The position numbers were made by a program, and so were the translations under genes. Source: Aureispira anguillae (GTDB lineage: Bacteria > Bacteroidota > Bacteroidia > Chitinophagales > Saprospiraceae). From it: a stretch of 64,000 bases of DNA. Below the pieces are notes generated by a model, which did not search any database, was not told the origin of the DNA, and worked only from the letters and a program-made list of their open reading frames with translations. This document shows, in pieces, positions 32,717 to 57,765 of this stretch (position 1 is the first letter of the stretch; each line of letters opens with the position of its first letter). The stretch is from assembly GCF_026000115.1 (NCBI RefSeq), contig NZ_AP026867.1, positions 6,611,001 to 6,675,000 on the forward strand, in the 5' to 3' direction.

Positions 32717-32730
32717 TACCGATCTGAACC

Positions 32731-37191: not shown

Positions 37192-37285
37192 TAGATAGCA
37201 CGCTCTTCTTTTTATGCTTGTTGTTCTAATAATTGTAAAACAAGAGCTTTTGACCCAAAATTATAGTAGCAAAACGATTCATTGC

Positions 37286-40099
37286 ATGAAAAGTCTATTC
37301 ATATTCTTTAGTACCATCGGGCTAACCATCATTATGTTGGTAGGATGTGCTAAACAAACTCTTGTTACCAAGCCTTATCACAACTTAACAGGGCGTTACA
37401 ATGCTTATTATAATGCCAATTTGCGTGTTGTAGAGAGCTTTGATTTGTTGAACAAGCAACATCAGGACAATTACAATAAGTACTTGGAAATGTATCCTTA
37501 TGCGGCAGTAGCCGATGCAGGGGCGGTCAAGCAACCATTGGATGAAGCCATTACTAAATGCGCTCGAAATATTAAATTACATACGGTTGGGAATTGGACC
37601 GATGATAGCTATCATTTGATGGGAAAGGCTGAGTTTTTACAAAAGGAGTATGAACGTGCTGCTAATACTTTTAAATTTATTGTCGATAAATACCATCCAG
37701 AAAATGTTGCCAAAGAGTTAGAAAAACTCAAAAAGAAAAAGAAGAAAAAAAAGAGAAAGAAAAAGCGTAGAAAACGCAAAAAGAGAAAGAAAAAGAAGAA
37801 GTCCCAAAAGAAAAAAACGAAGCAAGAGGCTGAGGATGAAGAGGACGAAAAACCAATCAAATATGGCATCAAACATCGTCCTGTACGATATCGTTCTATG
37901 CTTTGGTTGGCTAAAACGTACATTGAATTGGGACAATTTGATGAGGCGGGGTATTATCTGCGACAATTAGAAAATGATAAAAAGGTTCCTAAAAAACTTT
38001 ATCCAAGAATTCAAGCTGTTATTGCTTATAGTTGGATCAAACAGAAAGAGTACGAAAAGGCTATAGAGCCTTTAGAATTGGCTGTAGCGCATACAAAAAA
38101 GAAAACGATCAAAAATCGTTACGTCTATTTATTGGGGCAAATCTATCAGATGCAAGGAAATAGCCAATTGGCAATGGAGCGTTTTCATCATATTTTGCGT
38201 TTACGCCCTAGTTATGAGATGGAATTTAATGCTCGTCTTAATATGGCAAAAAATGCAGCTGGTGCAACGGGCAAAAAGGTAGTCGATCCTGAAATCGCTT
38301 TGAAACGCATGTTGCGTGATTCAAAGAATGAAGAATACAAAGATCAAATCTATTTTGCTTTAGCCGAAATTAAATTAAAATCAGGTAATAAAGAGGATGG
38401 AATTCTTGCTTTACAGCAATCCTTAAATTATAGCAGTAATAATGCGCAACGTACTGAAGGCTGCCTACTATTGGCTCAATTGTTTTATGAAAAGGATGAC
38501 TTTGTTCAGTCCTATGCTTATTACGATAGTACCATCCAAGTAATGGATAAAAAGGATGAGCGCTTTGCAACCACAGATCTGTATAAACATCGATTAAAAG
38601 GCGTGGCTACTCATTTAGCAGCAAAGATAGATAAAGATAGTATGTTAGTGGTTGGTTCTTGGGAGCGATTAAAACAAGAACGTTGGGCGATTAATGGAAT
38701 GGAAATGGAAGAAGCGATGGCAAAAAATCGTGCAGCAAAAGGACCTAATAACCCGTTGCCTACTAAAAAAGGATTTCGTGAAATGGAACTGAGTTCTATG
38801 AATGCTGCTACAGATCGACCATTACCTAGCCGAACAGGATCTAGAGGTGCAACAGGGACGGTAACGATTTCGGATGCAGCATTACAAAAATCAAAATTTC
38901 CATTGTATAATGCCACCCTCAAAAAGAAGGGAGAACGTGAGTTTGAAAAGCGTTGGAATAAACGTTCTTGGGTGGATAATTGGAGACGTTCAGATCGAGA
39001 AGAGGACATTACAATAAATGATGAAGAAATTGCTGCTGCTGTTCCTAAAACACAAGCAGAGATTGATGCCTACCTGAAGAAAAAGGGAGTGCCTAAGAGC
39101 GATCAAGAAAAAGAAGCATTGGCGCTAAAAGTTGGTGAGGCTATGTTTAAAGCGGCAGAACATTATAGAGAGGATTTAGGTAGAAATGACAAAGCGCTCC
39201 AATTGGTTAAACAATTGGTTGCTAAGTATCCTGATAATCCTTATGCTGTAGAGGCGATGTTTTTGGCTTACAATATCTATTCGGAAAAAAACAATGCTAC
39301 CCAAGCCAATTATTATAAAAATGAAATTCTTAAAAAGTATCCAGAATCAAATATTGCAAAAGTGTTGAGCGATCCTGAATTTGCTAATTCTGAAAAAATT
39401 AAGTATCAAAAAATTAACCAATATTATGACGATACTTATGCTATGATCCAAGATGGAAAAGCAGAGCAGGCTTTGAGTAGAGTTCGTGCCGTTCCAACGG
39501 AGTTTGGGAGCAATTATGAAATGAAAGCACGTTTTGCCATATTGGAAGCTATGTGTGTAGGGGGAATGAAAGGAGAACAGGATTATATCAAAGCATTAAG
39601 AATTATTGTTACTAGTTTTCCCAACACCAAAGAAGAAAAGCAGGCTAAGGCAATGATCGCTATTTTAGGTGGCAATAAAGCAAAAAATAAAGGAGGAGCA
39701 GTAAATAATAATAAGGGGGGAGCCAAAGACTTAGTGCCTTATCGAGTAAATATGAAAACCAAGCATCTTATCTTGGTTGTGTTTGACAATAAAAAGACAA
39801 AAATTAATCAGTATAGAGCAGGATTAACGGAGTTTAACAACAAGTTCTATTTAAACAACCGTTTGAGTGTTTCTTCTATTTTGGTAGATGGAGGAACGCC
39901 TAGTTTGACGATTCGTGGTGCTTTTACGAGCGGAGAGCAGGCAATGAAGTACGTAACAGATGCTAGAGCTAATCCAGAATTTTTACCAGGTGTAAAAGGC
40001 TATACCATTTATGCGATTTCTCAAGAAAATTATGGGCTAGCAATGACTACACAAAAGTTCTATCAGTACCGTGCATTTTTTGAGAAACATTACCGATAA
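37286..40099 (+). CDS. sprE: T9SS/gliding TPR lipoprotein SprE/PorW-like
   Basis: The start is ATG 37286, because it opens a proper lipoprotein signal (MLVGC, Cys21); an upstream ATG at 37214 adds residues without purpose. The 937-residue protein has the SprE/PorW opening (KPYHNLTGRYNAYYNAN), then several TPR-like helical repeats in two blocks (about 100-430 and 600-800) and a C-terminal domain repeating YRAGLTEFNNKFY-like segments. SprE/PorW is needed for T9SS secretion and gliding, probably linking the outer-membrane translocon to the PorKN ring. Residues 147-179 are an almost unbroken Lys/Arg run (29 of 33), followed by a Glu/Asp-rich patch, inside a TPR region; this is unusual. It is probably monocistronic, with a terminator downstream. 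Confidence 0.88.
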   Translation: MKSLFIFFSTIGLTIIMLVGCAKQTLVTKPYHNLTGRYNAYYNANLRVVESFDLLNKQHQDNYNKYLEMYPYAAVADAGAVKQPLDEAITKCARNIKLHTVGNWTDDSYHLMGKAEFLQKEYERAANTFKFIVDKYHPENVAKELEKLKKKKKKKKRKKKRRKRKKRKKKKKSQKKKTKQEAEDEEDEKPIKYGIKHRPVRYRSMLWLAKTYIELGQFDEAGYYLRQLENDKKVPKKLYPRIQAVIAYSWIKQKEYEKAIEPLELAVAHTKKKTIKNRYVYLLGQIYQMQGNSQLAMERFHHILRLRPSYEMEFNARLNMAKNAAGATGKKVVDPEIALKRMLRDSKNEEYKDQIYFALAEIKLKSGNKEDGILALQQSLNYSSNNAQRTEGCLLLAQLFYEKDDFVQSYAYYDSTIQVMDKKDERFATTDLYKHRLKGVATHLAAKIDKDSMLVVGSWERLKQERWAINGMEMEEAMAKNRAAKGPNNPLPTKKGFREMELSSMNAATDRPLPSRTGSRGATGTVTISDAALQKSKFPLYNATLKKKGEREFEKRWNKRSWVDNWRRSDREEDITINDEEIAAAVPKTQAEIDAYLKKKGVPKSDQEKEALALKVGEAMFKAAEHYREDLGRNDKALQLVKQLVAKYPDNPYAVEAMFLAYNIYSEKNNATQANYYKNEILKKYPESNIAKVLSDPEFANSEKIKYQKINQYYDDTYAMIQDGKAEQALSRVRAVPTEFGSNYEMKARFAILEAMCVGGMKGEQDYIKALRIIVTSFPNTKEEKQAKAMIAILGGNKAKNKGGAVNNNKGGAKDLVPYRVNMKTKHLILVVFDNKKTKINQYRAGLTEFNNKFYLNNRLSVSSILVDGGTPSLTIRGAFTSGEQAMKYVTDARANPEFLPGVKGYTIYAISQENYGLAMTTQKFYQYRAFFEKHYR

Positions 40100-43422: not shown

Positions 43423-44304
43423 ATGAATTCAATCACAAAAATTACCAGCTTGTTGGTAGCTGGATTATTGGTTGTTACCAATTCGATAGATGCTCAAAAT
43501 ACTTACATGACCGAAGCAGGCGTTCGTGTTACAGAGGACAAAAAAGCCTGTAAGAAACCTAGGGATGGTTTTTATGATCGTTATCTGCACAAAGAAAAAA
43601 TGCCACTGCCTTATGACTATATCCATGAAAAAGATGTTTTTTGGGAAAAAAGAATATGGAGAGAAGTTGATACACGTGAAAAAATGAATCATACTTTTGT
43701 TAGTCCGCATGGTCCTTTGATTACGACCCTCTTAGATGCTGCAAAAGAAGGAAACATTACACTTTATAGCTCTTGGGATGAGAAATTCTCTATTGCATTA
43801 AGTCAAGATGAAATCCAAAACCTAATGTCTTACGCTGATACCATTAGTATTTATGATCCAGAAACCCTTCGAGATAGCATTGTTGTTGTCACCAATGAAT
43901 TTAATTGGGAGAATGTACAGAAGTATCGCATCAAGGAAGTTTGGTATTTTGATGAAGAAACCTCTACATTAGGCGTTCGAATATTGGGCATTGCCCCTAT
44001 TATTAATCGCTATGATGATAACGGCGAATTTCTGAATTCTGGTCCCATGTTTTGGGCTTATTATCCAGAATTGAGAAAAACATTTGCGCAAACGGAGACG
44101 TTTAATCCATTGAATGATGGTGCTAGGTTGAGTTGGGATGATTTGTTTGAGGCTCGTCTTTTTTCTTCTTATATTATCAAAGAAAATAATATCCACGATC
44201 GACGTATTAAAGATTATGCAAAGAATGGCACCAATGCTTTATTAGAATCCGAAAGAATTCATTCTGAAATTTTTAATTTTGAACATGACCTTTGGTCTTA
44301 TTAA
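43423..44304 (+). CDS. gldN: Type IX secretion/gliding protein GldN (PorN)
   Basis: The 293-residue exported protein has a signal peptide cut near IDAQ (residue 25). The mature part has the GldN/PorN blocks RDGFYDRYLHKEKMPLPYDY, FWEKRIWREVDTREKMN and PLITTLLDAAKEGNITLY. GldN forms, with the lipoprotein GldK, the large periplasmic rings of the T9SS that touch the outer membrane. In most genomes gldN is the last gene of gldKLMN, but here it stands alone with porV convergent behind it. It could be the only copy or a GldO-like paralogue. A bidirectional terminator follows. Confidence 0.9.
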   Translation: MNSITKITSLLVAGLLVVTNSIDAQNTYMTEAGVRVTEDKKACKKPRDGFYDRYLHKEKMPLPYDYIHEKDVFWEKRIWREVDTREKMNHTFVSPHGPLITTLLDAAKEGNITLYSSWDEKFSIALSQDEIQNLMSYADTISIYDPETLRDSIVVVTNEFNWENVQKYRIKEVWYFDEETSTLGVRILGIAPIINRYDDNGEFLNSGPMFWAYYPELRKTFAQTETFNPLNDGARLSWDDLFEARLFSSYIIKENNIHDRRIKDYAKNGTNALLESERIHSEIFNFEHDLWSY

Positions 44305-44384: not shown

Positions 44385-45701
44385 CTATCTTTTTTTACCT
44401 TTTTTCTTGTCTGGAGCTTTTCCAAAATCGAACATAATAGAGAAACGTAAGGTGTTGTCCAAAGGATTACGTTGCCCTGCTTGAGAAGGAATTAGATACG
44501 AAAAGTTGATGTTGAAAATTTTATAACGAATACCTAATCCAACTGTAAAGAATTTTCGATTTCCTTTAAATTTATGCTCATTGTAGTGTCCAAAACGAAC
44601 AGCAAATTGTTTGTTGTACCAATATTCTAAACCTACAGACCACATCAATTCAGAGAATTCTTCTCCAGCACCACCTGGTGCATCTCCAAAGGAAGAAAAG
44701 ATAGAAGCAGGAACAGATTGTTGCTTGTAATCTGCTACATCATCATTATTGGCATCGTAATCAGGATTGATAACTGGATCACCATTACTATCCTTGATTA
44801 TTTCTCCATCTTCGTCATATTGAAGTTTACGAACAGGAGTAGGTACTAACAGTTTATTAATATCTAAGCCTACAACAATAGAGTTGTGTTTGTCAAATTG
44901 ATACTCAAATGAGAACCCTAAGCCTAAATTAGCAGGAATGTAATCACGGTTAGCAGATTGAGTATAAGATATTTTTGTACCAATGTTAGAGAACACTAGT
45001 CCAGCAGAGAAAATAGCATTTTTTCTATCTTTTAGATCTTCTCTTTTTTTGCCAATTTGCAACTCTTTGCGAAAAGTAAAGGATAAATCAGTAGCAAAAC
45101 CATGTGCTGGAGTCATTGTTTGTCCTCCAGAAACGGCCCCAGTTCCCAAATTAGAAAAAATGTATTTTGGAGTGAAACCAACTGAAAAATCTTTACCTAG
45201 TTTACGAGCATAAGCAAAAGCCAATTCAAATTCGTTTGGACGAACCGTTTGCAACGGATTCCCTTGATCATCTGTATATTGAATTTGTCCCAAAGAGAAA
45301 AAGCGAAGGCTAACCCCGATGGTTTGGAAATAATCAACGTGTTTGTAAGCCGACAAATAGGCTAAAAATACATCGTTTAACCCCAAGGCACGTAACCAAG
45401 GAGTAAACGTAGCTGAAATACTAAAGTCCTTTGGTGCAAATGTTAAGTTGGATGCATTAAAATGCATAGAGTTGGGATCTGAAGGCATTGCAATTCCTAC
45501 ATCGCCCATACCGCCAAAACGAGCATCTGGAACAATGCGTAAGAATGGGACAGCTGTAATAATTGTATTGTTGCAATCAGAACCATCGGCAGAAGCACCA
45601 TTAAAAGGGCAATCTATAGAGCCTTGTGCAATTGTTTTTGTCTGAGAAAGAGTAAGGGTTGCAATAAGAATAAGGCAACTTCTTAGAATCGTCATCTTCA
45701 T
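44385..45701 (-). CDS. porV: Type IX secretion outer-membrane protein PorV
   Basis: The start is set at ATG 45701 (MKMTILRSCLILIATLTLSQ), giving a clean signal peptide; an in-frame ATG at 45722 adds seven residues. The mature protein is a FadL-like outer-membrane beta-barrel with the PorV/LptO opening (VPFLRIVPDARFGGMGDVGIA, about 40-60) and alternating hydrophobic strands to a terminal aromatic-rich strand (LRFSIMFDFG). PorV forms the attachment complex with PorU and shuttles cargo from the SprA translocon. The tail after the last strand is lysine-rich (KAPDKKKGKKR). It is followed upstream on the same strand by two porU copies, as in Flavobacterium where porU and porV adjoin. Confidence 0.93.
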   Translation of the reverse strand: MKMTILRSCLILIATLTLSQTKTIAQGSIDCPFNGASADGSDCNNTIITAVPFLRIVPDARFGGMGDVGIAMPSDPNSMHFNASNLTFAPKDFSISATFTPWLRALGLNDVFLAYLSAYKHVDYFQTIGVSLRFFSLGQIQYTDDQGNPLQTVRPNEFELAFAYARKLGKDFSVGFTPKYIFSNLGTGAVSGGQTMTPAHGFATDLSFTFRKELQIGKKREDLKDRKNAIFSAGLVFSNIGTKISYTQSANRDYIPANLGLGFSFEYQFDKHNSIVVGLDINKLLVPTPVRKLQYDEDGEIIKDSNGDPVINPDYDANNDDVADYKQQSVPASIFSSFGDAPGGAGEEFSELMWSVGLEYWYNKQFAVRFGHYNEHKFKGNRKFFTVGLGIRYKIFNINFSYLIPSQAGQRNPLDNTLRFSIMFDFGKAPDKKKGKKR

Positions 45702-45890
45702 ATAAAAAATATTGTTTGTCATTACTGTTTTGGTTTGTAATCGTTCGTTCAGGTTGCTCTATCTTTATCCAATAAACAATACTTTATTATTGGGGTAGAT
45801 AAATGATAAAAAAACCATTGACGTTTTACTAAAAAAATGATTCCTAGAAGTAAAGTTTTTACATATATTCGAAGTTTTGAATTCTACGGT

Positions 45891-46090: not shown

Positions 46091-49000
46091 TTATTTTAGA
46101 ATGACGAGTTTTTGAAATTCACTGCTTTGTTTTGTTTTGTCAGCCGCCCCTTCTGTTTGTACAAAAATCTTGTAAATATAAACGCCTTTGCCAATTCTAT
46201 CGCCATAATCATCAAGACCATCCCAATGAATGTTATCCACCCGATAGCCATTGTTGGCTTCTGCATTAACATCGTGATCGATGGTTTTTATTAGTCGTCC
46301 AGAAACGGTATATATTTGAACCTGAACCTCTAGCGATTGATAAGGGAAATTGTGTTCAAATTGAAAATTAGTGCTGGTGGTAAATGGATTGGGATAGTTG
46401 AGGACATGCGCCAATGCCATATCTGCTGATTCTGCAACGACAAACTCTGTAGATCCCTCCCCCGGATTGTTGTAAACATCCCAAGCCTTTACTTTTACAG
46501 TATGCAAGCCAGGAGCAAGGTCTTTTAGCGGATAGATAGCCGTTCCTCTAGTATAATCATCTTTGGTAGATTCATAAAAATCATTAAGAATATACTCTTC
46601 TACCTCTTGTTTAGGAGTGGTTAACTTAGCCGTCAAGTCATGCCCAATGCTATTTCCAACGGTATTAATACCATTTTCATCGTATAATTTGACCAATAAC
46701 TTAGGATTATTATCTGTAATTCCTCCTCTTGCAAACTCCTCTGTATTCATGTAAACCAACACTTCAGGACCCTGATTATCAACAGCGGCATTAGGATTAG
46801 ATCCGCCAACAACCAATTTACTATAATGCCCATGAGCATCCATTTTGCTGCCATCTTCGGCATAATAAGACAACTTACCATAGCCTAAGGTGTAGTTAAT
46901 ATCTTTGGGAACAACAAAGGAGAAGGTAAAGTCTCCATCTTTGACGCTTGCTTGCCCTTTGAATATAATTTTCTTGCGCAAGAAAAAATCATCAGGGAAG
47001 CTCCCCGCATCATTACCTAAGGTAAACAGACGATCTTGTTTGTCAAAAACAGTAGGGTAGATGGTACCATCAAAATCTACTTTAACACCATTGTCGTCTA
47101 CGACTTCTCCCGAAATAGTCACCAATTCTAAAGCTTTGATGGTATCTTGACTGCTGGCAGTAATAGGACGACCATTGATGCTCGTGCTTCTGATGGTGTG
47201 TTTGGGATAGGCTAATTTCATAGTAGGATCTCCCAACAGTGCATACTTTCTAGAATTGACTGGAGGAGTAATCGCTGCTTTATTTTTTGCCATTTTAAGA
47301 ACTTCGCCAGTCGTAGGCATTTGACCATTGGTCTTTTTTTCAAAAATGACATTAAATGTATTTTTCACCAAACGTTCATTGTGAGAAGCGATAACAACTC
47401 GTACCGTTGTTAAAATAGAAATAGCACCACCATAAGGATTTAAAAGCAATAGTTCTCCTGCCGAAACAGTATTTGGGTCATCGTGAGGACCAAAAGAGCA
47501 AGTTGCAGTAATAAATAGTGGCAGCTTATTTTGGTTCGATAAATTATTGATGTCATTACTCGTAAAGACTCGTTCTTGTGTCCATCCGTCATCTCCTCCA
47601 TGCCCTAGATAATTCACAATAAAACTACCTTTAAAAAGAATGTCTAAAAGAGAGTTTTTAGCATCGGGATAACGTTCTCCGCCAGAAGTGCTCACCTGTT
47701 TGTAGGCATCCAAATAGACCTTTTCGATGTTGTAAGTACTATCTTCATGCCCAGAAGCGATTGCAATACCCTCAGCATCGTAAAAATGTAAATTACTGTC
47801 TCCATCATCGGCTACAAAACAAAGTCGGTTTTTCCAGTCTTTGAGTACAGTAGGATTGGTTTCGTAATCTATGATTTTATCAACAAAGATCGTCGCTTCT
47901 TTTATATCAGCAGCAGGCAATCTTCCAACAGCAATGTCGAGTAAGCTAAAGGTAGACATTCTTTCTTGGGGATCCAACAACGCAAAATAATCGTCAGAAG
48001 TATAGGTGTTGATGGGATGCATGGACTCTTGGGTTTCATAGACAGGAACCAAGTTGGGGTTGTTCTCCGTAGTGCGATTTTCACCAATCGATTTGTAATC
48101 AAAAGAACCAATACCAAAGAGCAATAGATGTGTAAATTTGTGCGTTGGAGTTTCTCTTTCATAAAGCATTCTACAAAAATCACGAATAGCGGTAACATCA
48201 GGTTTTCCAGCAGCAAATTCATTATAAATATCAGCGACATCAATGACATCTACAGTCATATTATCTTGTGTACGTCGATGAGCAGCTAAACGCTCTGCTT
48301 GTGCTTTTAAGCTAGCGTGAACAACAAAAACAGCATCTGGAGGAGAAGTAATGGCATGCAAGTTTTGATTGTTAACAGGTCCTCTATCCAATGGGCGATA
48401 AAATTGATTGTTGTCAAAAGCAACAAATTCACGAAGGATAGAAGCATCAGCACCAAAACTAATGGTATTAGAGCCCGTATATTCTTGAATCACAACATGA
48501 CTAGGATCACTGACATCCCATAAGGTAATGTTATTGGCGTTGGCAATTTGATAAGTCGCACTGTTTTGACCAAGCGAACGACTATCTCTAAAAGGGAGTT
48601 GACCACCAGCGAAATTTAATTGGCAACGAGCTTGAACCGATAGGTAATTCAGCCACATATCCGCAGCAGAACTAACATGATTAAGGTTAATTTGCACCTC
48701 AACATCTTGACCCGCTAAGACAGTGGGGGTACAAGGAAAGGTTAAACGTTTGGCATAGTCAGAATAAATATAAACAGTTGTAATAGCTGTGTTAATAGGA
48801 GGCCCCATAGAGCGCCCATTGGCTGCTAGGGTAGCGGTTCCAGGAGTAAATACACGAACGGCTAAATCAGATTGGATAGCAACTGGTTCACTTTCAATTC
48901 TATTTTTGAAATCAAATTTAAAGTCCCTAGTCCGAGTAATTCTAAAGGATTCACCATACCATTCTCTTCCTGAAGGAGGGAGTGCAAATTCCTGCTCCAT

Positions 49001-49978
49001 CAAATTGGTTTGATCGACTTCGTGGTGGGCTAATGCATCATAAGCATCGGTTGTATAGCTAGAAGCACCCGTAGATGCTCGATTGCTCATGCGAAGCCCA
49101 TTCGTTGAAGCGATTTTTATAAAATAATAGCTTTCGTTGGTATAAGGATTGATGCTGTGTTTAAATTTAGCACAGGTTGCAGTAGCATTATATTCCCAAT
49201 TTTGAGTGCTGACACCATAGAATAAGATATAGTCATTTTGTCCAAAATTGCCATCGGCTTCTCCCGCTACAAAGATGTGATTTTCGACCAAATCATCGGC
49301 AATGGTAACATCCATTCGTTCAGGCAAGGCTTTACCACCATTACCTAAGAGTTGAATTTTTCTAGGATCAATATTGTCAACATCAATACCAATGCTTTTT
49401 AAGAAATCATAGTCCAATTTTTGTACACCAGTATTGGTGACGGCAATTTTGTAAATTTGTCCATCAGCGAATTTAGAAGTAGTAGCAAAATTTCTGGCAT
49501 TTCTAGAACTATTATAAGGAGAAGGCTTGCTTAAGAGGTTAAGTTGTAAATCTGCCTTCACTAATTTTTCATATTGCCCCGTGGTCGGATTTTTTCGAAT
49601 GGGATTAAAATGGATCATTCCAACAGGCTTTCTGCGCTCAAAAGAAACAGCAGTTTCTACCTTTATATCCCCAATCTGGCTCAAATCTAAATGGGTTGTA
49701 TTCACAAGCGGTGTATATTGCTCATTGACCAACCTAGCCTTCAGCTCGCCATAATTCGTTAGTTCGATTTGTTTAGAATAAATAGGAAATTGTGGATTAG
49801 CCTCATCGTAACTAGCCTCTTCAAAATACATATAATGTAGGATATGATCTTGAGCGATTTTGTATTGTCGAGGTTGTTCCTCCCATTGAATAAGAATGGG
49901 CTCAGTAATAAGTTGAGCATAAACATTCGTACTAATTAATAAGGATAGGAGCAATGCCTTTAATGTTGTTTGAAGCAT
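46091..49978 (-). CDS. porU: Type IX secretion sortase PorU, copy A
   Basis: The 1295-residue protein has a signal peptide (about 1-22, ending NVYAQ). After a large beta-rich N-terminal region comes a gingipain-type C25 peptidase domain with His793 in VNYLGHGGDDGW and Cys827 in TATCSFGPHDDP. The 34-residue spacing matches the catalytic dyad of PorU. A C-terminal beta domain (about 1200-1295; LNYPNPFTTSTNF ... GVYIYKI) resembles a T9SS sorting domain. PorU sits on the cell surface with PorV, cuts the sorting signal from cargo and joins it to anionic lipopolysaccharide. It is a near duplicate of the gene 4453 bp to the right. A minus-strand TATCTTTG lies 72 nt upstream. Confidence 0.93.
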   Translation of the reverse strand: MLQTTLKALLLSLLISTNVYAQLITEPILIQWEEQPRQYKIAQDHILHYMYFEEASYDEANPQFPIYSKQIELTNYGELKARLVNEQYTPLVNTTHLDLSQIGDIKVETAVSFERRKPVGMIHFNPIRKNPTTGQYEKLVKADLQLNLLSKPSPYNSSRNARNFATTSKFADGQIYKIAVTNTGVQKLDYDFLKSIGIDVDNIDPRKIQLLGNGGKALPERMDVTIADDLVENHIFVAGEADGNFGQNDYILFYGVSTQNWEYNATATCAKFKHSINPYTNESYYFIKIASTNGLRMSNRASTGASSYTTDAYDALAHHEVDQTNLMEQEFALPPSGREWYGESFRITRTRDFKFDFKNRIESEPVAIQSDLAVRVFTPGTATLAANGRSMGPPINTAITTVYIYSDYAKRLTFPCTPTVLAGQDVEVQINLNHVSSAADMWLNYLSVQARCQLNFAGGQLPFRDSRSLGQNSATYQIANANNITLWDVSDPSHVVIQEYTGSNTISFGADASILREFVAFDNNQFYRPLDRGPVNNQNLHAITSPPDAVFVVHASLKAQAERLAAHRRTQDNMTVDVIDVADIYNEFAAGKPDVTAIRDFCRMLYERETPTHKFTHLLLFGIGSFDYKSIGENRTTENNPNLVPVYETQESMHPINTYTSDDYFALLDPQERMSTFSLLDIAVGRLPAADIKEATIFVDKIIDYETNPTVLKDWKNRLCFVADDGDSNLHFYDAEGIAIASGHEDSTYNIEKVYLDAYKQVSTSGGERYPDAKNSLLDILFKGSFIVNYLGHGGDDGWTQERVFTSNDINNLSNQNKLPLFITATCSFGPHDDPNTVSAGELLLLNPYGGAISILTTVRVVIASHNERLVKNTFNVIFEKKTNGQMPTTGEVLKMAKNKAAITPPVNSRKYALLGDPTMKLAYPKHTIRSTSINGRPITASSQDTIKALELVTISGEVVDDNGVKVDFDGTIYPTVFDKQDRLFTLGNDAGSFPDDFFLRKKIIFKGQASVKDGDFTFSFVVPKDINYTLGYGKLSYYAEDGSKMDAHGHYSKLVVGGSNPNAAVDNQGPEVLVYMNTEEFARGGITDNNPKLLVKLYDENGINTVGNSIGHDLTAKLTTPKQEVEEYILNDFYESTKDDYTRGTAIYPLKDLAPGLHTVKVKAWDVYNNPGEGSTEFVVAESADMALAHVLNYPNPFTTSTNFQFEHNFPYQSLEVQVQIYTVSGRLIKTIDHDVNAEANNGYRVDNIHWDGLDDYGDRIGKGVYIYKIFVQTEGAADKTKQSSEFQKLVILK

Positions 49979-50049
49979 TATGTTTTGTGTTTTTAGAATT
50001 ACTATATAGCAAACAACTATGGGTACATTGCTACATAAGATATAATTAC

Positions 50050-50057
50050 CAAAGATA
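50050..50057 (-). promoter_or_regulatory. Possible -7 box for porU copy A
   Basis: The minus strand reads TATCTTTG at 72 nt before the start codon. The site lies beyond the 43-bp leader shared with copy B and has no counterpart there, so the copies may be expressed differently. Confidence 0.4.
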
Positions 50058-50477
50058 AAGAATCTATATCAAACTAATAATTATTAATATACTAGGCTTT
50101 ATTATTAGGACAAACAAACTTCTTAAAAAGTTGGGATGTTTGAAAAAATTACAAATCCTTGATTCTTTTTCTTACAAAAATCAATGAACCAATGGGCTCA
50201 TGGTTTGATTTATTTAGTTGTTAATGTAAAATTATATCATAGATGGTATTAAAACAGTTGTTCTGGAATTCTAAAAACTAGATCACTTATTTATGACCCA
50301 TGTTTCTATAGAACGTGGAAAACTTGGAATGTGTTGATGCTTTTTTTGAAAAAAATGATTTTTATAGAGATTAGCTGTGGATCAATTAAGCCCTTAATTA
50401 GCAAATGGCGGGTAAATGAACAAAAGAGTAGGTTGAAAATGAGAATACCATTAGCAATTGTATCATTATATAACATT

Positions 50478-50517
50478 GTTTGTAACCTGTATCTATATAG
50501 TAGTACAGGTTACAAAC
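50478..50517 (-). terminator. Hairpin downstream of porU copy B
   Basis: A perfect 14-bp inverted repeat (50478-50491 with 50504-50517, 12-base loop) lies 27 nt after the stop codon. No T-run, but it is well placed to end the copy B transcript. The sequence after copy A is different. Confidence 0.55.
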
Positions 50518-50543
50518 CAATAGAATTAATACCTAATAGTATC

Positions 50544-53500
50544 CTATTTTAGAATGACGAGTTTTTGAAATTCGCTGCTTTGTTTTGTTTTGTCAGCAGC
50601 CCCTTCTGTTTGTACAAAAATCTTGTAAATATAAACGCCTTTGCCAATTCTATCGCCATAATCATCAAGACCATCCCAATGAATGCCATCCACCCGATAG
50701 CCATTGTTGGCTTCTGCATTAACATCATGATCGATGGTTTTTATTAGCCGCCCAGAAATGGTATATATTTGAACTTGAACCTCTAGCGATTGATAAGGGA
50801 AGTTGTGTTCAAATTGAAAATTAGTGCTGGTGGTAAATGGATTGGGATAGTTGAGGACGTGCGCTAATGCCATATCTGCTGATTCTGCAACGACAAACTC
50901 TGTAGATCCCTCCCCTGGATTGTTGTAAACATCCCAAGCCTTTACTTTTACGGTATGCAAGCCAGGAGCAAGGTCTTTTAGCGGATAAATAGCCGTTCCT
51001 CTAGTATAATCATCTTTAGTAGCTTCATAAAAATCATTAAGAATATACTCTTCTACCTCCTGTTTAGGAGTGGTTAACTTAGCCGTCAAGTCATGCCCAA
51101 TGCTATTTCCAACGGTATTAATACCATTTTCATCGTATAATTTGACCAATAACTTAGGATTATTATCTGTAATTCCTCCTCTTGCAAACTCCTCTGTATT
51201 CATATAAACCAATACTTCAGGACCCTGATTATCAACAGCGGGATTAGGGTTAGATCCACCAACAACCAATTTACTATAATGTCCATGAGCATCCATTTTG
51301 CTGCCATCTTCGGCATAATAAGACAACTTACCATAGCCTAAGGTGTAGTTAATATCTTTGGGAACAACGAAGGAGAAGGTAAAGTCTCCATCTTCGACGC
51401 TTGCTTGTCCTTTGAATATAATTTTCTTGCGCAAGAAAAAATCATCAGGGGTACTCTCTCTATCATTACCTAAGGTAAACAGACGATCTTGTTTGTCAAA
51501 AACAGTAGGGTAAATGGTGCCGTCAAAATCTACTTTAACGCCATTGTCGTCTACGACTTCTCCAGAAATAGTCACGAATTCTAAAGCTTTGATGGTATCT
51601 TGGCTATTGGCTGTAATAGGACGACCATTGATGCTCGTGCTTCTGATGGTGTATTTAGGATAGGCTAATTTCATAGTAGGATCTCCCAACAGTGCATACT
51701 TTCTAGAATTGAGTGGAGGAGAAATTGCTGCTTTATTTTTTGCCATTTTAAGAACTTCGCCAGTCGTAGGCATTTGACCATTGGCCTTTTTTTCAAAAAT
51801 GACATTAAATGTATTTTTCACCAAACGTTCATTGTGAGAGGCGATAACAACCCGTACTGTTGTTAAAATAGAAATGGCACCACCATAAGGATTTAAAAGC
51901 AATAGTTCTCCTGCCGAAACAATATTGGGGTCATCGTGAGGACCAAAAGAGCAAGTTGCAGTAATAAATAGTGGCAACTTATTTTGGTTCGATAGATTAC
52001 GAATATCTCGACTTGTAAAGACTCGTTCTTGTGCCCATCCATCATCTCCTCCATGCCCTAGATAATTCACAATAAAACTACCTTTAAAAAGAATGTCTAA
52101 AAGAGAATTTTTAGCATCGGGATAACGTTCTCCGCCAGAAGTGCTCACCTGTTTGTAGGCATCCAAATAGACCTTTTCGATGTTGTAAGTACTATCTTCA
52201 TGCCCAGAAGTGATTGCAATACCCTCAGCATCGTAAAAATGTAAATTACTGTCTCCATCATCGGCTACAAAACAAAGTCGGTTTTTCCAGTCTTTGAGTA
52301 CAGTAGGATTGGTTTCGTAATCTATTATTTTATCAACAAAGATAGTCGCTTCTTTTATATCAGCAGCAGGCAATCTTCCAACAGCAATGTCGAGTAAGCT
52401 AAAGGTAGACATTCTTTCTTGGGGATCCAACAACGCAAAATAATCGTCAGAAGTATAGGTATTGATGGGATGCATGGACTCTTGGGTTTCATAGACAGGA
52501 ACCAAGTTGGGACTGTTCTCCGTAGTGCGATTTTCACCAATCGATTTGTAATCAAAAGAACCAATACCAAAGAGCAATAGATGTGTAAATTTGTGCGTTG
52601 GAGTTTCTCTTTCATAAAGCATTCTACAAAAATCACGAATAGCGGTAACATCAGGTTTTCCAGCAGCAAATTCATTATAAATATCAGCGACATCAATGAC
52701 ATCTACAGTCATATTATCTTGTGTACGTCGATGAGCAGCTAAACGCTCTGCTTGTGCTTTTAAGCTAGCGTGAACAACAAAAACAGCATCTGGAGGAGAA
52801 GTAATGGCATGTAAGTTTTGATTGTTAACAGGTCCTCTATCCAATGGGCGATAAAATTGATTGTTGTCAAAAGCAACAAATTCACGAAGGATAGAAGCAT
52901 CAGCACCAAAACTAATGGTATTAGAGCCCGTATATTCTTGGATCACAACATGACTAGGATCACTGACATCCCATAAGGTAATGTTATTGGCGTTGGCAAT
53001 TTGATAAGTCGCACTGTTTTGACCAAGCGAACGACTATCTCTAAAAGGGAGTTGACCGCCAGCGAAATTTAATTGGCAACGAGCTTGAACCGATAGGTAA
53101 TTCAGCCACATATCCGCAGCAGAACTAACATGATTAAGGTTAATTTGCACCTCAACATCTTGACCCGCTAAGACAGTGGGGGTACAAGGAAAGGTTAAAC
53201 GTTTGGCATAAGCAACATAGGGGTCAACACTGGTCGTAACAGCATTGATCGGAGGCCCCATAGAGCGCCCATTGGCTGCTAGAGTAGCAGTTCCAGGAGT
53301 AAATACACGAACGGCTAAATCGGATTGGATAGCAACTGGTTCACTTTCAATTCTATTTTTGAAATCAAACTTAAAGTCCCTAGTCCGAGTAATTCTAAAG
53401 GATTCACCATACCATTCTCGACCTGAAGGAGGGAGTGCAGATTCCTCCTCCATCAAATTGGTTTGATCGACTTCGTGGTGGGCTAATGCATCATAAGCAT

Positions 53501-54431
53501 CGGTTGTATAGCTAGAAGCACCCGTAGATGCTCGATTGCTCATGCGAAGCCCGTTCGTTGAAGCGATTTTTATAAAATAATAGCTTTCGTTGGTATAAGG
53601 ATTGATGCTGTGTTTAAATTTAGCACAGGTTGCAGTAGTATTATATTCCCAATTTTGAGTGCTGACACCATAGAATAAGATATAGTCATTTTGTCCAAAA
53701 TTGCCATCGGCTTCTCCTGCTACAAAGATGTGATTTTCGACCAAATCATCGGCAATGGTAACATCCATTCGTTCAGGCAAGGCTTTGCCACCATTACCTA
53801 AGAGTTGAATTTTTCTAGGATCAATATTGTCAACATCAATACCAATGCTTTTTAAGAAATCATAGTTCAATTTTTGTACGCCAGTATTGGTGACGGCAAT
53901 TTTGTAAATTTGTCCATCAGCGAATTTAGAAGTAGTAGCAAAATTTCTAGCATTTCTAGAACTATTATAAGGAGAAGGCTTGCTTAAGAGATTAAGTTGT
54001 AAATCTGCCTTCACTAGTTTTTCATATTGCCCCGTGGTTGGATTTTTTCGAATGGGATTAAAATGGATCATTCCAACAGGCTTTCTACGCTCAAAAGAAA
54101 CAGCAGTTTCTACCTTTATATCCCCAATCTGGCTCAAATCTAAATGGGTTGTATTCACAAGCGGTGTATATTGCTCATTGACCAACCTAGCCTTCAGCTC
54201 GCCATAATTCGTTAGTTCGATTTGTTTAGAATAAATAGGAAATTGTGGATTAGCCTCATCGTAACTAGCCTCTTCAAAATACATATAATGTAGGATATGA
54301 TCTTGAGCGATTTTGTATTGTCGAGGTTGTTCCTCCCATTGAATAAGAATGGGCTCAGTAATAAGTTGAGCATAAACATTCGTACTAATTAATAAGGATA
54401 GGAGCAATGCCTTTAATGTTGTTTGAAGCAT
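50544..54431 (-). CDS. porU: Type IX secretion sortase PorU, copy B (tandem duplicate)
   Basis: The start is ATG 54431, giving 1295 residues, exactly the length of copy A; an upstream in-frame ATG (54518) would add 29 residues lying mostly outside the duplicated DNA. The signal peptide, C25 dyad (His793, Cys827) and C-terminal domain are all present, so it looks functional. By eye about 32 residues differ from copy A. Eight of them fall in a 12-residue block (NAVTTSVDPYVA here against NTAITTVYIYSD) and others near GGDDGWAQERVFTSRDIRN, close to the active site. T9SS-bearing genomes normally have one PorU. A second could widen cargo range or simply be a recent duplication. Confidence 0.92.
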   Translation of the reverse strand: MLQTTLKALLLSLLISTNVYAQLITEPILIQWEEQPRQYKIAQDHILHYMYFEEASYDEANPQFPIYSKQIELTNYGELKARLVNEQYTPLVNTTHLDLSQIGDIKVETAVSFERRKPVGMIHFNPIRKNPTTGQYEKLVKADLQLNLLSKPSPYNSSRNARNFATTSKFADGQIYKIAVTNTGVQKLNYDFLKSIGIDVDNIDPRKIQLLGNGGKALPERMDVTIADDLVENHIFVAGEADGNFGQNDYILFYGVSTQNWEYNTTATCAKFKHSINPYTNESYYFIKIASTNGLRMSNRASTGASSYTTDAYDALAHHEVDQTNLMEEESALPPSGREWYGESFRITRTRDFKFDFKNRIESEPVAIQSDLAVRVFTPGTATLAANGRSMGPPINAVTTSVDPYVAYAKRLTFPCTPTVLAGQDVEVQINLNHVSSAADMWLNYLSVQARCQLNFAGGQLPFRDSRSLGQNSATYQIANANNITLWDVSDPSHVVIQEYTGSNTISFGADASILREFVAFDNNQFYRPLDRGPVNNQNLHAITSPPDAVFVVHASLKAQAERLAAHRRTQDNMTVDVIDVADIYNEFAAGKPDVTAIRDFCRMLYERETPTHKFTHLLLFGIGSFDYKSIGENRTTENSPNLVPVYETQESMHPINTYTSDDYFALLDPQERMSTFSLLDIAVGRLPAADIKEATIFVDKIIDYETNPTVLKDWKNRLCFVADDGDSNLHFYDAEGIAITSGHEDSTYNIEKVYLDAYKQVSTSGGERYPDAKNSLLDILFKGSFIVNYLGHGGDDGWAQERVFTSRDIRNLSNQNKLPLFITATCSFGPHDDPNIVSAGELLLLNPYGGAISILTTVRVVIASHNERLVKNTFNVIFEKKANGQMPTTGEVLKMAKNKAAISPPLNSRKYALLGDPTMKLAYPKYTIRSTSINGRPITANSQDTIKALEFVTISGEVVDDNGVKVDFDGTIYPTVFDKQDRLFTLGNDRESTPDDFFLRKKIIFKGQASVEDGDFTFSFVVPKDINYTLGYGKLSYYAEDGSKMDAHGHYSKLVVGGSNPNPAVDNQGPEVLVYMNTEEFARGGITDNNPKLLVKLYDENGINTVGNSIGHDLTAKLTTPKQEVEEYILNDFYEATKDDYTRGTAIYPLKDLAPGLHTVKVKAWDVYNNPGEGSTEFVVAESADMALAHVLNYPNPFTTSTNFQFEHNFPYQSLEVQVQIYTISGRLIKTIDHDVNAEANNGYRVDGIHWDGLDDYGDRIGKGVYIYKIFVQTEGAADKTKQSSEFQKLVILK

Positions 54432-55187
54432 TATGTTTTGTGTTTTTAGAATTACTATATAGCAAACAACTATGAACGCATTGTAGAGTAGGTATATGCC
54501 TATACTAGTGTAGACCATCTATCACAATTTGCTTGCTAAAACAGTGTTTAAGGAATGTGATTGTAACTATTTTCCTCTATAGAAAACCAGAATTATAAGC
54601 TACCTAGGTTATATTCGTAACATAGACCAAGGAATAGCAGTATAATTATCTCGTAAGACAAAATGTCATTAATCTATCGAGTATAAAAAGTAGAACTACA
54701 GCATAAAACAATGTTAAAGGATGTATTTTGAAATTCTAAAAACATAGCCGATTAGTAGGGCTAATGTGTTGATCACACAAAAGTAATTAATGGACTACTA
54801 ATTGATAAAACGTATACAAGTTGAGATATGTTGATGCCATAAAAAAACAATTTTTGTAAGAACGGCTATTTTGTAAAAGGCAGGGCTTTGTTGGTTGGTT
54901 AAATTTTTAGTAGTAATTGCAAAAACGAGGTAGTTGAAGGATTGTGAGCAGCGTCAGCTTGTAGGTTTATAATAAAGGAGGTAAGTAACTTCCTTAATTA
55001 TTATTGCCAATTATTAAATTAAGGCAACTTTTTAGCAGCTATTGTCTGTAAATAGTTTGTTTTAATAAAAAGGAATTCGATAGAATCAAAAATAAGTGTA
55101 CATTTATTACCGTTAATAGATTATTAAGATAAGTGCCCCAACTACTTATTTATTTTTTGATGCATATGATTTTAACCCATCTACATT
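54432..55187. other. Gene-free region between divergent porU copy B and porP/sprF
   Basis: 756 bp without a supported ORF. The first 43 bp (54432-54474) are the leader shared with porU copy A. A minus-strand TACTTTTG (54778-54785) and a TATTTTTG (near 55083) are the only promoter-like words. The region must hold promoters for both flanking genes. Confidence 0.4.
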
Positions 55188-56195
55188 ATGAAATATAAAC
55201 TTCTTATACTTTTGGGGATGACACTATTTTCTGCAAGATTAGTCGCACAAGATCCCGTTTATAGTCAGTTTTTTGCAGCACCAATGCAACTTAATCCCGC
55301 TTTGACTGGTTTGGTAGAAGCTCCTGTTATAACCTTAAACTATAGAAATCAATGGCCTAACATACCCAATGCTTATTCTACTTATGCGGTAGGTATTAGT
55401 CATTATCTTCCTAAAGCTAACAGTGGTTTAGGGGCTTTAGTGGAAGCGGATGTTGCGGGAGGAGGTATTTATTCAACTTATAGAGTTGGGTTATTTTATG
55501 CTTATGACATTCGCTTTTCAAAAAAGTTCTATATTCGTGCTGGAATAGAAGCCAATTTTGTCAATTCTCGCTTAGCGTGGAATAAGTTGGTGTTTTTGGA
55601 TCAATTGAATTTAGCCACAGGAGCGGTTGACATCAATGGAAATGCAAACCCGACCAATGAGATACAGGGGAGTCAAAGTATTAATTATTTTGATTTAGGA
55701 ACTGGATTGTTATTGAACACCCCCTATTTTTATGGTGGAATTTCTCTAAAGCATTTAACAGCACCTAAAGAACGATTCTTAAAAGAATACGAAGATGGTT
55801 CTGACGAATTGCCTTTGAGGTATACAATTCATATTGGAAGCGAAATTCGTTTGTCTAAACGCAATAAATTAGGAAATAAAGCGTTTTTATCTCCAAATGC
55901 TATGTTTGTTAAACAACAAACGTTTCATCAGTTAAATCTTGGTGCCTACCTTAGATATGGAATATTTTTAGGAGGAATTTGGTTTCGGCATACTTTTACA
56001 AATGCTGATGCCGTTATATTTATGGTAGGTATTCAAAAAGGTGTTTTCAAACTTGGGTACAGTTACGATTGGACTGTGTCTAAATTAGGAGCAGAATCAG
56101 GAGGAGCACATGAGATCTCTTTGACGCTGAACTTTGAAAATAAAAAACGAAAACATCGAAATAGATACAATGATTGCCTAGAAATATTTAGGTAA
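55188..56195 (+). CDS. PorP/SprF-family type IX secretion outer-membrane protein
   Basis: The 335-residue protein has a signal peptide (1-20, ending RLVAQ). It then has the PorP/SprF start DPVYSQFFAAPMQLNPALTG and repeated LNYRNQWP / YSTYAVGISHY-like segments, and ends as a beta-barrel with aromatic strands (FKLGYSYDWTVSKLG ... HEISLTLNFE). PorP/SprF proteins are outer-membrane partners that help secrete specific type B cargo or bind the GldK-N ring. The basic tail (KKRKHRNRY) is long for the family. gldJ follows 61 bp downstream on the same strand, with a TAAATTTG box between, so it may be separately started. Confidence 0.9.
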   Translation: MKYKLLILLGMTLFSARLVAQDPVYSQFFAAPMQLNPALTGLVEAPVITLNYRNQWPNIPNAYSTYAVGISHYLPKANSGLGALVEADVAGGGIYSTYRVGLFYAYDIRFSKKFYIRAGIEANFVNSRLAWNKLVFLDQLNLATGAVDINGNANPTNEIQGSQSINYFDLGTGLLLNTPYFYGGISLKHLTAPKERFLKEYEDGSDELPLRYTIHIGSEIRLSKRNKLGNKAFLSPNAMFVKQQTFHQLNLGAYLRYGIFLGGIWFRHTFTNADAVIFMVGIQKGVFKLGYSYDWTVSKLGAESGGAHEISLTLNFENKKRKHRNRYNDCLEIFR

Positions 56196-56256: not shown

Positions 56257-57765
56257 ATGAAGAAAATATTTTTATTAGGACTGCTTGGTATGTTGGTAGC
56301 AATGTCTTCTTGTAAGAAGGAAGAACGCTCTAGTACTACAGGGTGGGCGTACAATTCCCAAGAATGGGGAGGTTTTGAAAAGCCCATGGACTATCAAGGT
56401 CAAGCAACTGGTCCGAACCTTGTTTTTATTGAAGGGGGTACCTTCAATATGGGGCAAACAGAAGAGGACGTTATGAAAGATTACCGTGGGATTCCTCGTC
56501 GTGTAACGGTATCTTCTTTTTATATGGATGAAACGGAAGTTTCTAATATAGATTATTTAGAATATTTGTTTTGGTTGAATCGGGTACATTCTTCTATGCC
56601 TCAATTGCATAGAAAAGCATTGCCTGATACATTGGTTTGGTTAGAAGAACTTTCTTATAACGAGCCTTACGTTGAAACTTATTTGCGTCACCCTGCCTAC
56701 ATGGATTATCCATTGGTTGGTGTTTCTTGGTTGCAAGCTCAAGAATATTGCAAATGGAGAACGGACCGTGTTAATGAAATGATTCTTATTGAAACGGGCA
56801 AGATTAGTGCTGATATGGAAGGACAGCAAGGTGCTAACAATTTTGTTACAGATTCTTACCTAGCAGGTTTGTATGAAGCTGAACCAGGAGAAAAACCAAT
56901 GGTGGCTGCTTCTACTGGCGAAGAGCGTCCTGTAAAGTTTGAAGATGGTATTATCTTACCTGACTACCGTTTGCCTTCGGAAGCAGAGTGGGAATATGCA
57001 GCTTTGGCTTTAGTGGGGAATCAAGCTTATGCTAGAGATGAACGTATTTCTGATCGTAGAATTTATCCTTGGGATGGTACTACTGTACGTTATCCTCAAC
57101 ATGGAAAATACCAAGGTATGATTGTTGCTAACTTTAAGCGTGGACGTGGTGACTATATGGGGATGGCTGGTGCATTAAATGATAATGCATCTATTACTGC
57201 TCCTGTTCGTTCTTATGTGCCTAACGATTATGGTTTGTATAATATGGCTGGTAATGTTAACGAATGGGTACAAGATGTTTATCGTCCTATGACAAGTACT
57301 ACATTAAGAGATGTTGAAACGCAGGATTTGAATCCTTATCGTGGTAATGTCTTTATGGAAGTAGAGCTAGATGCAGATGGTAAGCCTCAATTGGACAATG
57401 ATTCTATTGCGCCAGGTCGTTTAAAATATAAAGAGTTAGATGCGGATGAAATCGCTACTAGAAGAAACTTCCAGTTCTCTAACGTTATTAACCATTTAGA
57501 TGGTGATGCTCAATCTGAAGCTACTTACGAATATGGAAAGCACAGTTTGGTTTCTGACAAATCTCGTGTTTATAAAGGTGGTGCTTGGAATGATAGAGCT
57601 TATTGGATGTCTCCAGGTACTAGACGTTTCTTAGAAGAAGATAAATCATCTGCTTACTTAGGTTTCCGTTGTGCGATGACTCGTACAGGATCTCCAAAAG
57701 GAAATGGTGCTCCTGGTGGAAATCAAATTAGAACGACTAAACGTCAAACGAAGAGAAGATATTAA
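56257..57765 (+). CDS. gldJ: Gliding motility lipoprotein GldJ
   Basis: The 502-residue lipoprotein (Cys19 after LVAMSS) has the GldJ N-terminus (TTGWAYNSQEWGGFEKP) and a formylglycine-generating-enzyme (SUMF1)-like fold: FIEGGTFNMGQTEEDVM (57-73), YMDETEVSNIDYLEYL, GVSWLQAQEYCKWRTDRVNE, YRLPSEAEWEYAA, YNMAGNVNEWVQD and LGFRCAMTR at the end. This order and the end match GldJ rather than the shorter GldK. The fold is used as a scaffold and is not thought to be catalytic. GldJ is needed for gliding and stabilises other Gld proteins, and its C-terminal part matters for T9SS function. In Flavobacterium it adjoins porU and porV, as it broadly does here. Confidence 0.92.
   Translation: MKKIFLLGLLGMLVAMSSCKKEERSSTTGWAYNSQEWGGFEKPMDYQGQATGPNLVFIEGGTFNMGQTEEDVMKDYRGIPRRVTVSSFYMDETEVSNIDYLEYLFWLNRVHSSMPQLHRKALPDTLVWLEELSYNEPYVETYLRHPAYMDYPLVGVSWLQAQEYCKWRTDRVNEMILIETGKISADMEGQQGANNFVTDSYLAGLYEAEPGEKPMVAASTGEERPVKFEDGIILPDYRLPSEAEWEYAALALVGNQAYARDERISDRRIYPWDGTTVRYPQHGKYQGMIVANFKRGRGDYMGMAGALNDNASITAPVRSYVPNDYGLYNMAGNVNEWVQDVYRPMTSTTLRDVETQDLNPYRGNVFMEVELDADGKPQLDNDSIAPGRLKYKELDADEIATRRNFQFSNVINHLDGDAQSEATYEYGKHSLVSDKSRVYKGGAWNDRAYWMSPGTRRFLEEDKSSAYLGFRCAMTRTGSPKGNGAPGGNQIRTTKRQTKRRY

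Follow-up and report, generated by a model that had tools for sequence, protein, structure and literature searches.

Here we describe a tandem pair of genes for the T9SS sortase PorU in Aureispira anguillae. The two copies are so alike that the pair would seem young, but it is probably much older. The account we favour, with moderate confidence, is that an old tandem duplication of porU has been held near-identical by gene conversion, one copy overwriting the other while the flanks drifted; that the copies are kept alike by overwriting is the most likely explanation of their resemblance. The window, that is, the whole stretch of DNA analysed, comprises 64,000 nucleotides of contig NZ_AP026867.1. 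Throughout, G000 denotes the A. anguillae genome, copy A the porU on the porV side and copy B the porU on the porP side. High identity between A and B need not date the duplication, since their flanks have diverged and relatives carry tandem pairs at the same place. Taken together, the discordance between coding and flanking divergence and the varied A/B identity among relatives point to an older pair homogenised by conversion.

Results

Two PorU genes between porP and porV

Between porP and porV lie two intact porU genes, head to tail and 1295 codons each (Table 1), as a preliminary description had reported; the 4453 bp that it gave as their distance is the start-to-start offset, and the actual gap is 565 bp. 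The list of open reading frames puts the start of copy B 29 codons further upstream, and we used the start common with copy A. Both products score far above the cut-off of the PorU family model NF033707 (420 bits), match Peptidase_C25 (PF01364) at 348 and 343 bits, and pass the CTD model TIGR04183 at 28.0 and 26.7 bits (cut-off 23). The previously described dyad is likewise present in both, with His793 within LGHGG and Cys827 within TATCS; signal peptides were judged by eye on the sequence. The P. gingivalis PorU structure (PDB 6za2) matches copy A over residues 164-1279 (E 1.3e-145). The pair is like known PorU in family score, C25 domain, Cys/His dyad, CTD and porV neighbour, and differs in that two adjacent genes stand here where one stands there.

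The idea that the pair consists of PorU and PorU2 was ruled out, since the two proteins score only 191 and 189 bits with the PorU2 model NF052324 (cut-off 450). G000 has a separate C25 sortase-like protein of PorU2 type (708 bits, L045:6151-11211), and just upstream of its gene is a weaker member of the PorV family (match C1:5022900-5023883). That family comprises one strong gene in G000, the porV beside the pair, and three weaker ones. SprA is single in nine of nine genomes of the genus, and this together with the one strong porV rules out a doubling of the whole T9SS, SprA and PorV being the components counted.

Table 1. Features of the porU locus (window positions).
Feature	Position	Strand	Evidence
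PorN/GldN gene	43423..44304	+	TIGR03523 198 bits
porV	44385..45722	-	NF033710 423.6 bits
porU copy A (porV side), 1295 codons, stop TAA	46091..49978	-	NF033707 1251 bits; Peptidase_C25 residues 551-922
565-bp spacer, copy A upstream flank, orthologous to relatives' A-copy or single-copy flank	49979..50543	-	Flank alignment z
43-bp leader 5' of copy A, same as copy B leader	49979..50021	-	Exact identity to -43, then break
14-bp perfect inverted repeat, loop 12, 26 bp past copy B stop; putative transcript end	50478..50517	-	Repeat search
porU copy B (porP side), 1295 codons, stop TAG	50544..54431	-	NF033707 1250.7 bits; 97.5% identical to copy A
Divergent island, copy B codons 394-407	53211..53252	-	Densest 42-nt window, 19 differences
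43-bp leader 5' of copy B, same as copy A leader	54432..54474	-	Exact identity over 43 bp
Copy B upstream flank, reaching porP	54432..55187	-	porP-side part aligns with G122, G126_B, G121_B flanks
PorP/SprF-family gene, opposite side of pair	55188..56195	+	TIGR03519 221 bits
GldJ-type lipoprotein gene	56257..57765	+	TIGR03530 398 bits (cut-off 383); under TIGR03524 cut-off (434 of 458)

The first 70 nt past the copy B stop fold at -24.4 kcal/mol, and the inverted repeat there is absent from the output of the terminator scan. Scans for sigma-70 promoters and terminators found about as many hits as in shuffles (34 vs 33.7 and 6 vs 5.9, respectively). The Bacteroidota promoter pattern, TTG followed after 17-24 bases by TAnnTTTG, has no match in either G000 flank and matched one of eight flanks (G021), and Rfam gave nothing at gathering scores.

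Near-identical genes in unlike flanks

Of 3888 nt, 117 differ between copies A and B, including one in the stop codon (TAA/TAG). The proteins differ at 32 of 1295 residues, in agreement with the earlier estimate by eye, and their first 188 residues are identical. The codon-level comparison gives a dS of 0.096 and a dN of 0.013. Identity ends 43 bp 5' of the ATG and at the stop codon, and the differences are clustered, with 19 in a single 42-nt window against at most nine in 5000 random draws. This island and the breakpoints at the gene ends are the only signs of a mosaic in G000: the longest run without a synonymous difference (350 nt) is within chance (P 0.089), and a relic-site test for a tie between copy B and the G126 B lineage found six sites for it and eight in reverse.

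The flanks were compared by z-scores against 100 shuffles keeping base composition only. The upstream flank of copy A in G000 aligns strongly with those of relatives (G121_A z 15.2, G126_A z 24.3, the single copy of G122 z 21.3), in the case of G121 even though the A genes have reached a dS of 2.11. Beyond -60, the two upstream flanks within G000 align at a z of only 4.2, and the same comparison within G121 (z 0.9) and within G126 (z 3.0) is no better. The upstream flank of copy B is roughly collinear with A-type flanks generally, reaching z 4.5 against G126_A, 5.1 against G122 and 2.3 against G121_A, a weak similarity as expected of an old duplicated flank; in its promoter-proximal part the alignment is weak or absent.

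Between G121 and G126, the flanks of copy B are orthologous (upstream z 16.6, downstream z 31.3). Those of copy B in G000 match neither genome (against G121, z 2.0 upstream and -0.7 downstream; against G126, z 0.0 and -1.2), as would be expected if the duplication were separate or the flank had been replaced. The downstream flanks of orthologous A copies are often unmatched too (G126_A with G121_A and with G122, z 0.6 each). Copy B of G000 may descend from the duplication that gave G121 and G126 their B copies, or a separate event at this site may have produced it.

Tandem pairs and conversion mosaics in relatives

A search of relatives for a second PorU at the same place found two complete copies in the same synteny in G121 (92.4% identical) and G126 (76.1%), so relatives are not all single-copy; several carry two. 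Paralogs are more alike than orthologs in G000 (97.5% vs at most 78.7%) and in G121 (92.4% vs 87.3%), and the opposite holds in G126, where A and B share 76.1% and the ortholog 90.0%. The G126 copies differ at 24% of positions, and their dN of 0.154 against a dS of 1.39 (dN/dS ~0.11) indicates that both are under purifying selection.

A mosaic conversion tract is clear in G121 from windowed A/B dS. Eight successive 40-column windows (residues ~80-393, ~314 codons) hold zero differences between its copies, while dS reaches 0.93 and 0.98 in the two windows that precede this tract, 1.01 at 714-753 and 1.99 at 993-1032. Inside the tract, in six 50-column windows, identity is 82-85% between G121_A and G126_A and 63-83% between G121_B and G126_B, which makes copy A the donor in G121. 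Segment trees are weak, grouping G121_B with G126_B at 88/84 (residues 1-79) and 77/84 (690-765). This grouping was recovered in all four shorter or hand-chosen segments drawn and in none of 13 windows of up to 150 residues, and an AU test on short segments did not reject the grouping of G121_A with G121_B (p 0.08 and 0.36). In the whole-gene tree, computed with G104_A, G104_B and L041 left out, the G000 copies pair at 100/100 and stand outside G126_B (96/95).

Could the G000 pair simply be young? A fragment from -43 to the stop would then have been copied beside the original and have diverged by 3% since, with no conversion. The synonymous differences, which are not significantly uneven, the lack of a relic-site signal, the B flanks unlike those of relatives and the close pairing in the tree all agree with such an event. 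We nevertheless regard it as unlikely, because breakpoints at gene ends are unexpected for tandem duplication, the island of 19 differences in 42 nt is left unexplained, and the flank of copy B is still weakly and collinearly similar to A-type flanks.

Faster change in copy B of four Aureispira genomes

Judged from site counts, copy B is the faster-evolving copy in four Aureispira genomes. Tajima counts of A-unique against B-unique sites are 1 vs 19 in G000, 14 vs 70 in G121, 70 vs 144 in G126, and 75 vs 135 and 16 vs 48 in G123. Copy B alone departs from otherwise invariant residues five, seven and 18 times in G000, G121 and G126, and copy A zero, one and two times. G076 shows no or marginal asymmetry (p 0.26 and 0.05) and G206 none, and in G104 it runs the other way (p 0.02).

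The faster rate invites the reading that copy B is becoming a sortase with a different cargo, partner or timing. The strongly diverged G126 copies under purifying selection would suit it, as would the dyad, which is intact in all five B copies compared (G000, G121, G126, G123 and G076), and the porV-side copies of G104 and G206, which are without the N-terminal extension. Conversion, however, erases divergence, and the CTD is the least divergent domain between copies in G126 (10.9%) and G121 (0%). In G000 the near-identity of the proteins, including their identical first 188 residues, leaves the earlier suggestion of different cargo unsupported, and division of labour seems to us improbable.

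Less likely still is slow decay, with copy B a redundant duplicate that chance conversion has rescued. Its losses at otherwise invariant residues would suit this, as would codon 1161 of G123_B, an in-frame TAA that precedes the CTD, although that stop may be a metagenome error. Upstream of the single copy in G122, part of the sequence aligns with the G126 B flank and another part with its A flank, which may reflect loss of a second copy there, unless none was ever gained. Against decay, G000_B, G121_B and G126_B have no internal stop, and the dN/dS between the G126 copies is low. An assembly artefact is very improbable given the 117 differences and unlike flanks, the same arrangement in the 2-contig assembly of G121, and the two contigs of G120 that break off within porU, the pattern that a true repeat gives in a short-read assembly.

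A single PorU is the normal state

One PorU is normal, as the preliminary description had held. Among genomes drawn from the phylum (at least 97% complete), 134 of the 135 that bear PorU have one, in one case matched in two pieces of one ORF, and G000 alone has two complete genes. The family survey found two complete porU genes in 7 of 379 genomes; both surveys scored the best two or three candidates per genome. Short-read assemblies can break at this locus, as in G120, so PorU copy number may be undercounted. The literature searched, in which most subscription papers were beyond reach, contained no description of a doubled PorU, and the available content of PMC4936053 and PMC11354047 is unrelated to it.

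CTD cargo and dosage

Strong CTD matches (E<=1e-11, among the best 125 candidates per genome) number 111, 80, 84 and 67 in two-copy Aureispira and 55, 58, 38 and 51 in single-copy ones (4 vs 4 genomes, exact p 0.014); the genome with the broken locus, G120, was left out of this test and added in a second (p 0.008). At E<=1e-8 the two-copy genomes have 149 or at least 150 matches and the single-copy genomes 145, 104, 117 and 95. Genome size and relatedness confound the trend, and counts per Mb overlap between the groups. Outside the genus, against 20 size-matched single-copy genomes hand-picked from the family survey, it was not seen (p 0.19). The dosage idea put forward earlier thus has weak support, confined to Aureispira; a higher or separately controlled dose of sortase would be the likeliest benefit of the pair.

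Discussion

In the model that we propose, one or more old tandem duplications of porU would have arisen between porP and porV. Gene conversion from copy A would then overwrite the coding sequence of copy B together with the 43 bp leader, and outside the converted region the flanks of the two genes would drift apart. Copy A would be the donor in G000 as in G121. Each copy would have its own promoter, with both expressed and active, and the benefit to a cell with a large load of type A CTD cargo would be more, or separately controlled, sortase of the same kind.

Prokaryotic paralogs in concerted evolution are described in PMC6053082, as far as its available text goes, as more alike than orthologs and often belonging to a single complex or pathway; the paper discusses gene conversion and dosage and names the tandem pairs fla and mtrA, with independent tandem duplication as an alternative for fla. 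The words secretion, sortase and Bacteroidetes are absent from its main text. The porU pairs of G000 and G121 are likewise more alike than orthologs, and that of G126 is not. Compared with the paralogs in the available text, homogenisation of porU varies by species, and the common origin of the pairs is putative, their B flanks being common to G121 and G126 and not visibly to G000.

A further reading, which we consider quite doubtful, is that the pair serves as a device of divergence and reset, in which copy B drifts, copy A resets it and hybrid sortases recur. Since dimerisation is reported to inhibit P. gingivalis PorU (PMC10202324, available text), A/B heterodimers could tune sortase latency, and if true this would be a controllable switch that single-copy genomes lack.

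The arrangement is rare in the phylum draw and present in several large Saprospiraceae genomes. Under the favoured model of an old pair kept alike by conversion, it would point to a limit of dose or control at the sortase step, with the translocon SprA staying single, and the pairs of 97.5, 92.4 and 76.1% identity form a natural series for telling dosage from division of labour.

Two porU genes at one locus

Two porU genes, as the preliminary description had it, are present in the Aureispira anguillae genome (here G000; 7.79 Mb in 3 contigs), offset by 4453 nt with 565 bp between them. The coding-strand order is porU copy B (the porP-side copy), porU copy A (the porV-side copy) and porV, with porN/gldN located past porV, and a porP/sprF-family gene and a gldJ-type gene divergent from copy B. 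The copies differ at 117 of 3888 nucleotides and 32 of 1295 residues. Both are PorU by the NCBIfam profile NF033707 (1251 bits) and both have the C25 domain, His793 and Cys827, and the type A sorting domain; the closest solved structure in a sequence search is P. gingivalis PorU, 6za2.

Near these T9SS genes stands a TPR protein of 961 aa whose first 200 residues hold a long stretch of lysine and arginine; we take it to be possibly a PorW/SprE-type component. Judged by its domain matches and tail, the 995-aa ORF listed below is likely a T9SS cargo protein. In another Aureispira genome, G021, a C25 match stands within about 5 kb of a strong PorV-family gene (397 bits), away from porU-porV, a neighbourhood that is possibly a further sortase-shuttle module; a second PorV of similar strength lies on contig C399 of a third, G123.

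Coordinates of porU copies and related features (window positions unless a genome, contig or locus is named)
Feature	Position	Strand	Remarks
porU copy B	50544-54431	-	complete, 1295 codons
porU copy A	46091-49978	-	complete, 1295 codons
TPR protein	37214-40099	+	961 aa
ORF, 995 aa	60977-63964	-	Sortilin-Vps10, PKD and MAM matches; T9SS sorting tail
ORF	30200-34065	+	calpain-family cysteine protease match; leucine-rich-repeat ORF starts 14 bp after
PorU2-type gene, elsewhere in G000	L045:6151-11211		NF052324, 708 bits
PorV-family match, weaker, G000	C1:5022900-5023883		upstream neighbour; about 0.3 kb between its end and the PorU2-type gene
C25 match with PorV-family gene	G021:C23:172193-177208
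G123_B, porP-side porU	L061:1488-5363		in-frame TAA at codon 1161, ahead of the C-terminal sorting domain (CTD)

Distribution of doubled porU

In a phylum-wide draw of 198 genomes, with PorU counted at E<=1e-100 and the best 2 or 3 candidates per genome scored, PorU was found in 135 and two complete genes only in G000; the two matches in G444 are pieces of a single ORF. Within the family Saprospiraceae, 379 of 398 genomes had PorU and 22 had two matches (again among the best 2 or 3 candidates), of which 16 were searched again and G000, G121, G123, G126, G076 and G104 were inspected at the locus. Two complete genes occur in seven family genomes (G000, G121, G126, G076, G104, G206 and G379), in tandem in all except G379, where they lie on separate contigs and a porV-like gene adjoins each. 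The PorU proteins of these two G379 pairs (L069, L070) are only 38% identical, and the second pair may represent either another system or contamination. Matches in G322, G320, G331 and G019 are overlapping pieces that may come from one gene or from two, and the ten remaining two-match genomes look like single porU genes split by assembly.

A second PorU at this place in related genomes, which the preliminary description proposed to look for, was found in part of the nine Aureispira genomes examined: G121 and G126 have tandem pairs like that of G000, whereas one copy was found in G021, G122, G124 and G125. G123 probably has two, one full-length with a stop that is either decay or a metagenome error, the other divided between two contigs. 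The locus is broken in G120, whose N-terminal piece matches G121_B at 92 of 93 residues. No description of a doubled PorU was found in the literature searched; the G000 pair is real and uncommon.

Probable gene conversion and the age of the pair

The preliminary description took the near-identity of the copies at face value, a reading that is probably too simple: the G000 pair does not look like a plain recent duplication. Coding dS between A and B is 0.096, and the identity ends 43 bp upstream of the ATG and at the stop codon. Past -60, the upstream flanks of A and B align at z 4.2 (against 100 shuffles, base composition kept), while the A flank aligns with those of G121_A, G126_A and G122 at z 15.2-24.3, even though the G000_A and G121_A genes stand at dS 2.11. 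Diverged flanks around young coding sequence are a mark of gene conversion. The chief divergent island covers codons 394-407, with 19 differences in 42 nt.

Identity between A and B is 97.5% in G000, 92.4% in G121 and 76.1% in G126, whose A copy is 90.0% identical to the porU of G122 and 87.3% to G121_A. The G121 pair is a mosaic of about 314 codons without differences, followed by stretches at dS near 1 or more. Because this identical tract is closer to G126_A (82-85% over six windows) than to G126_B (63-83%), A was the donor. Concerted evolution of prokaryotic paralogs is already known, and PMC6053082 names repeated tandem duplication as an alternative for a tandem pair, the same point that is at issue here. 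For G000, an old pair homogenised by conversion is the better reading.

Copy B of G000 may nevertheless stem from a duplication event of its own at this position and have been homogenised afterwards, a possibility raised by three observations together: differing sites give no signal for the G126 B lineage (6 for, 8 against), the flanks of G000_B match neither B flank of G121 and G126, which match one another (z 16.6 upstream, 31.3 downstream), and in the tree of whole genes the G000 pair falls outside G126_B (96/95). Little weight can be put on the downstream comparison, since orthologous A copies also fail it (G126_A against G121_A and G122, z 0.6 each). Short-segment trees favour joining G121_B with G126_B (seen in all four segments of one set, and at 88/84 and 77/84 in two segment trees of another), but AU topology tests did not reject G121_A with G121_B (p 0.08, 0.36), and the G121_B-G126_B grouping was absent from 13 of 13 window trees with windows up to 150 residues.

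Rates and form of the two copies

By Tajima-type counts of A-unique against B-unique changes, copy B evolves faster in G000 (1 vs 19, outgroup G021), G121 (14 vs 70, outgroup G122), G126 (70 vs 144, outgroup G000_A) and, in two parts, G123 (75 vs 135 and 16 vs 48, outgroup G021). The pattern breaks down beyond the genus (134 vs 154 in G076, 80 vs 66 in G206, 142 vs 104 in G104), with another outgroup giving 104 vs 135 in G076 (p 0.05). In G126, A and B compare at a dN/dS of about 0.11, and therefore purifying selection acts on both copies; the dyad residues are kept in the five B copies aligned. In the tandem pairs of G104 (L043) and G206 (L068), the porP-side copy has an N-terminal extension and the porV-side copy has none, a different split of form.

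Possible dosage benefit, control and cargo

All nine Aureispira genomes carry a single SprA, and one strong PorV is present in G000, which leaves the sortase as the only one of these components to be doubled. The dosage idea of the preliminary description finds weak support, and within the genus only: two-copy Aureispira have 111, 80, 84 and 67 strong CTD matches (E<=1e-11, best 125 candidates per genome), and those with a single copy have 55, 58, 38 and 51 (p 0.014 in an exact test, with species related, genome size confounding and per-Mb values overlapping). Beyond the genus, four two-copy genomes (93, 46, 13 and 24; best 125 candidates per genome) show no difference (p 0.19) from a hand-picked set of 20 large genomes with one copy, whose median is 20.5. 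A perfect inverted repeat of 14 bp follows copy B, which may mean that the two genes have separate transcripts, but promoter and terminator scans did no better than shuffles. A review (PMC10202324) describes inhibition of PorU by dimerisation, which would make mixed A/B dimers a testable idea. Dosage is the likeliest benefit of the pair, and we infer that the doubled porU would supply one and the same sortase in two doses, each under its own control.
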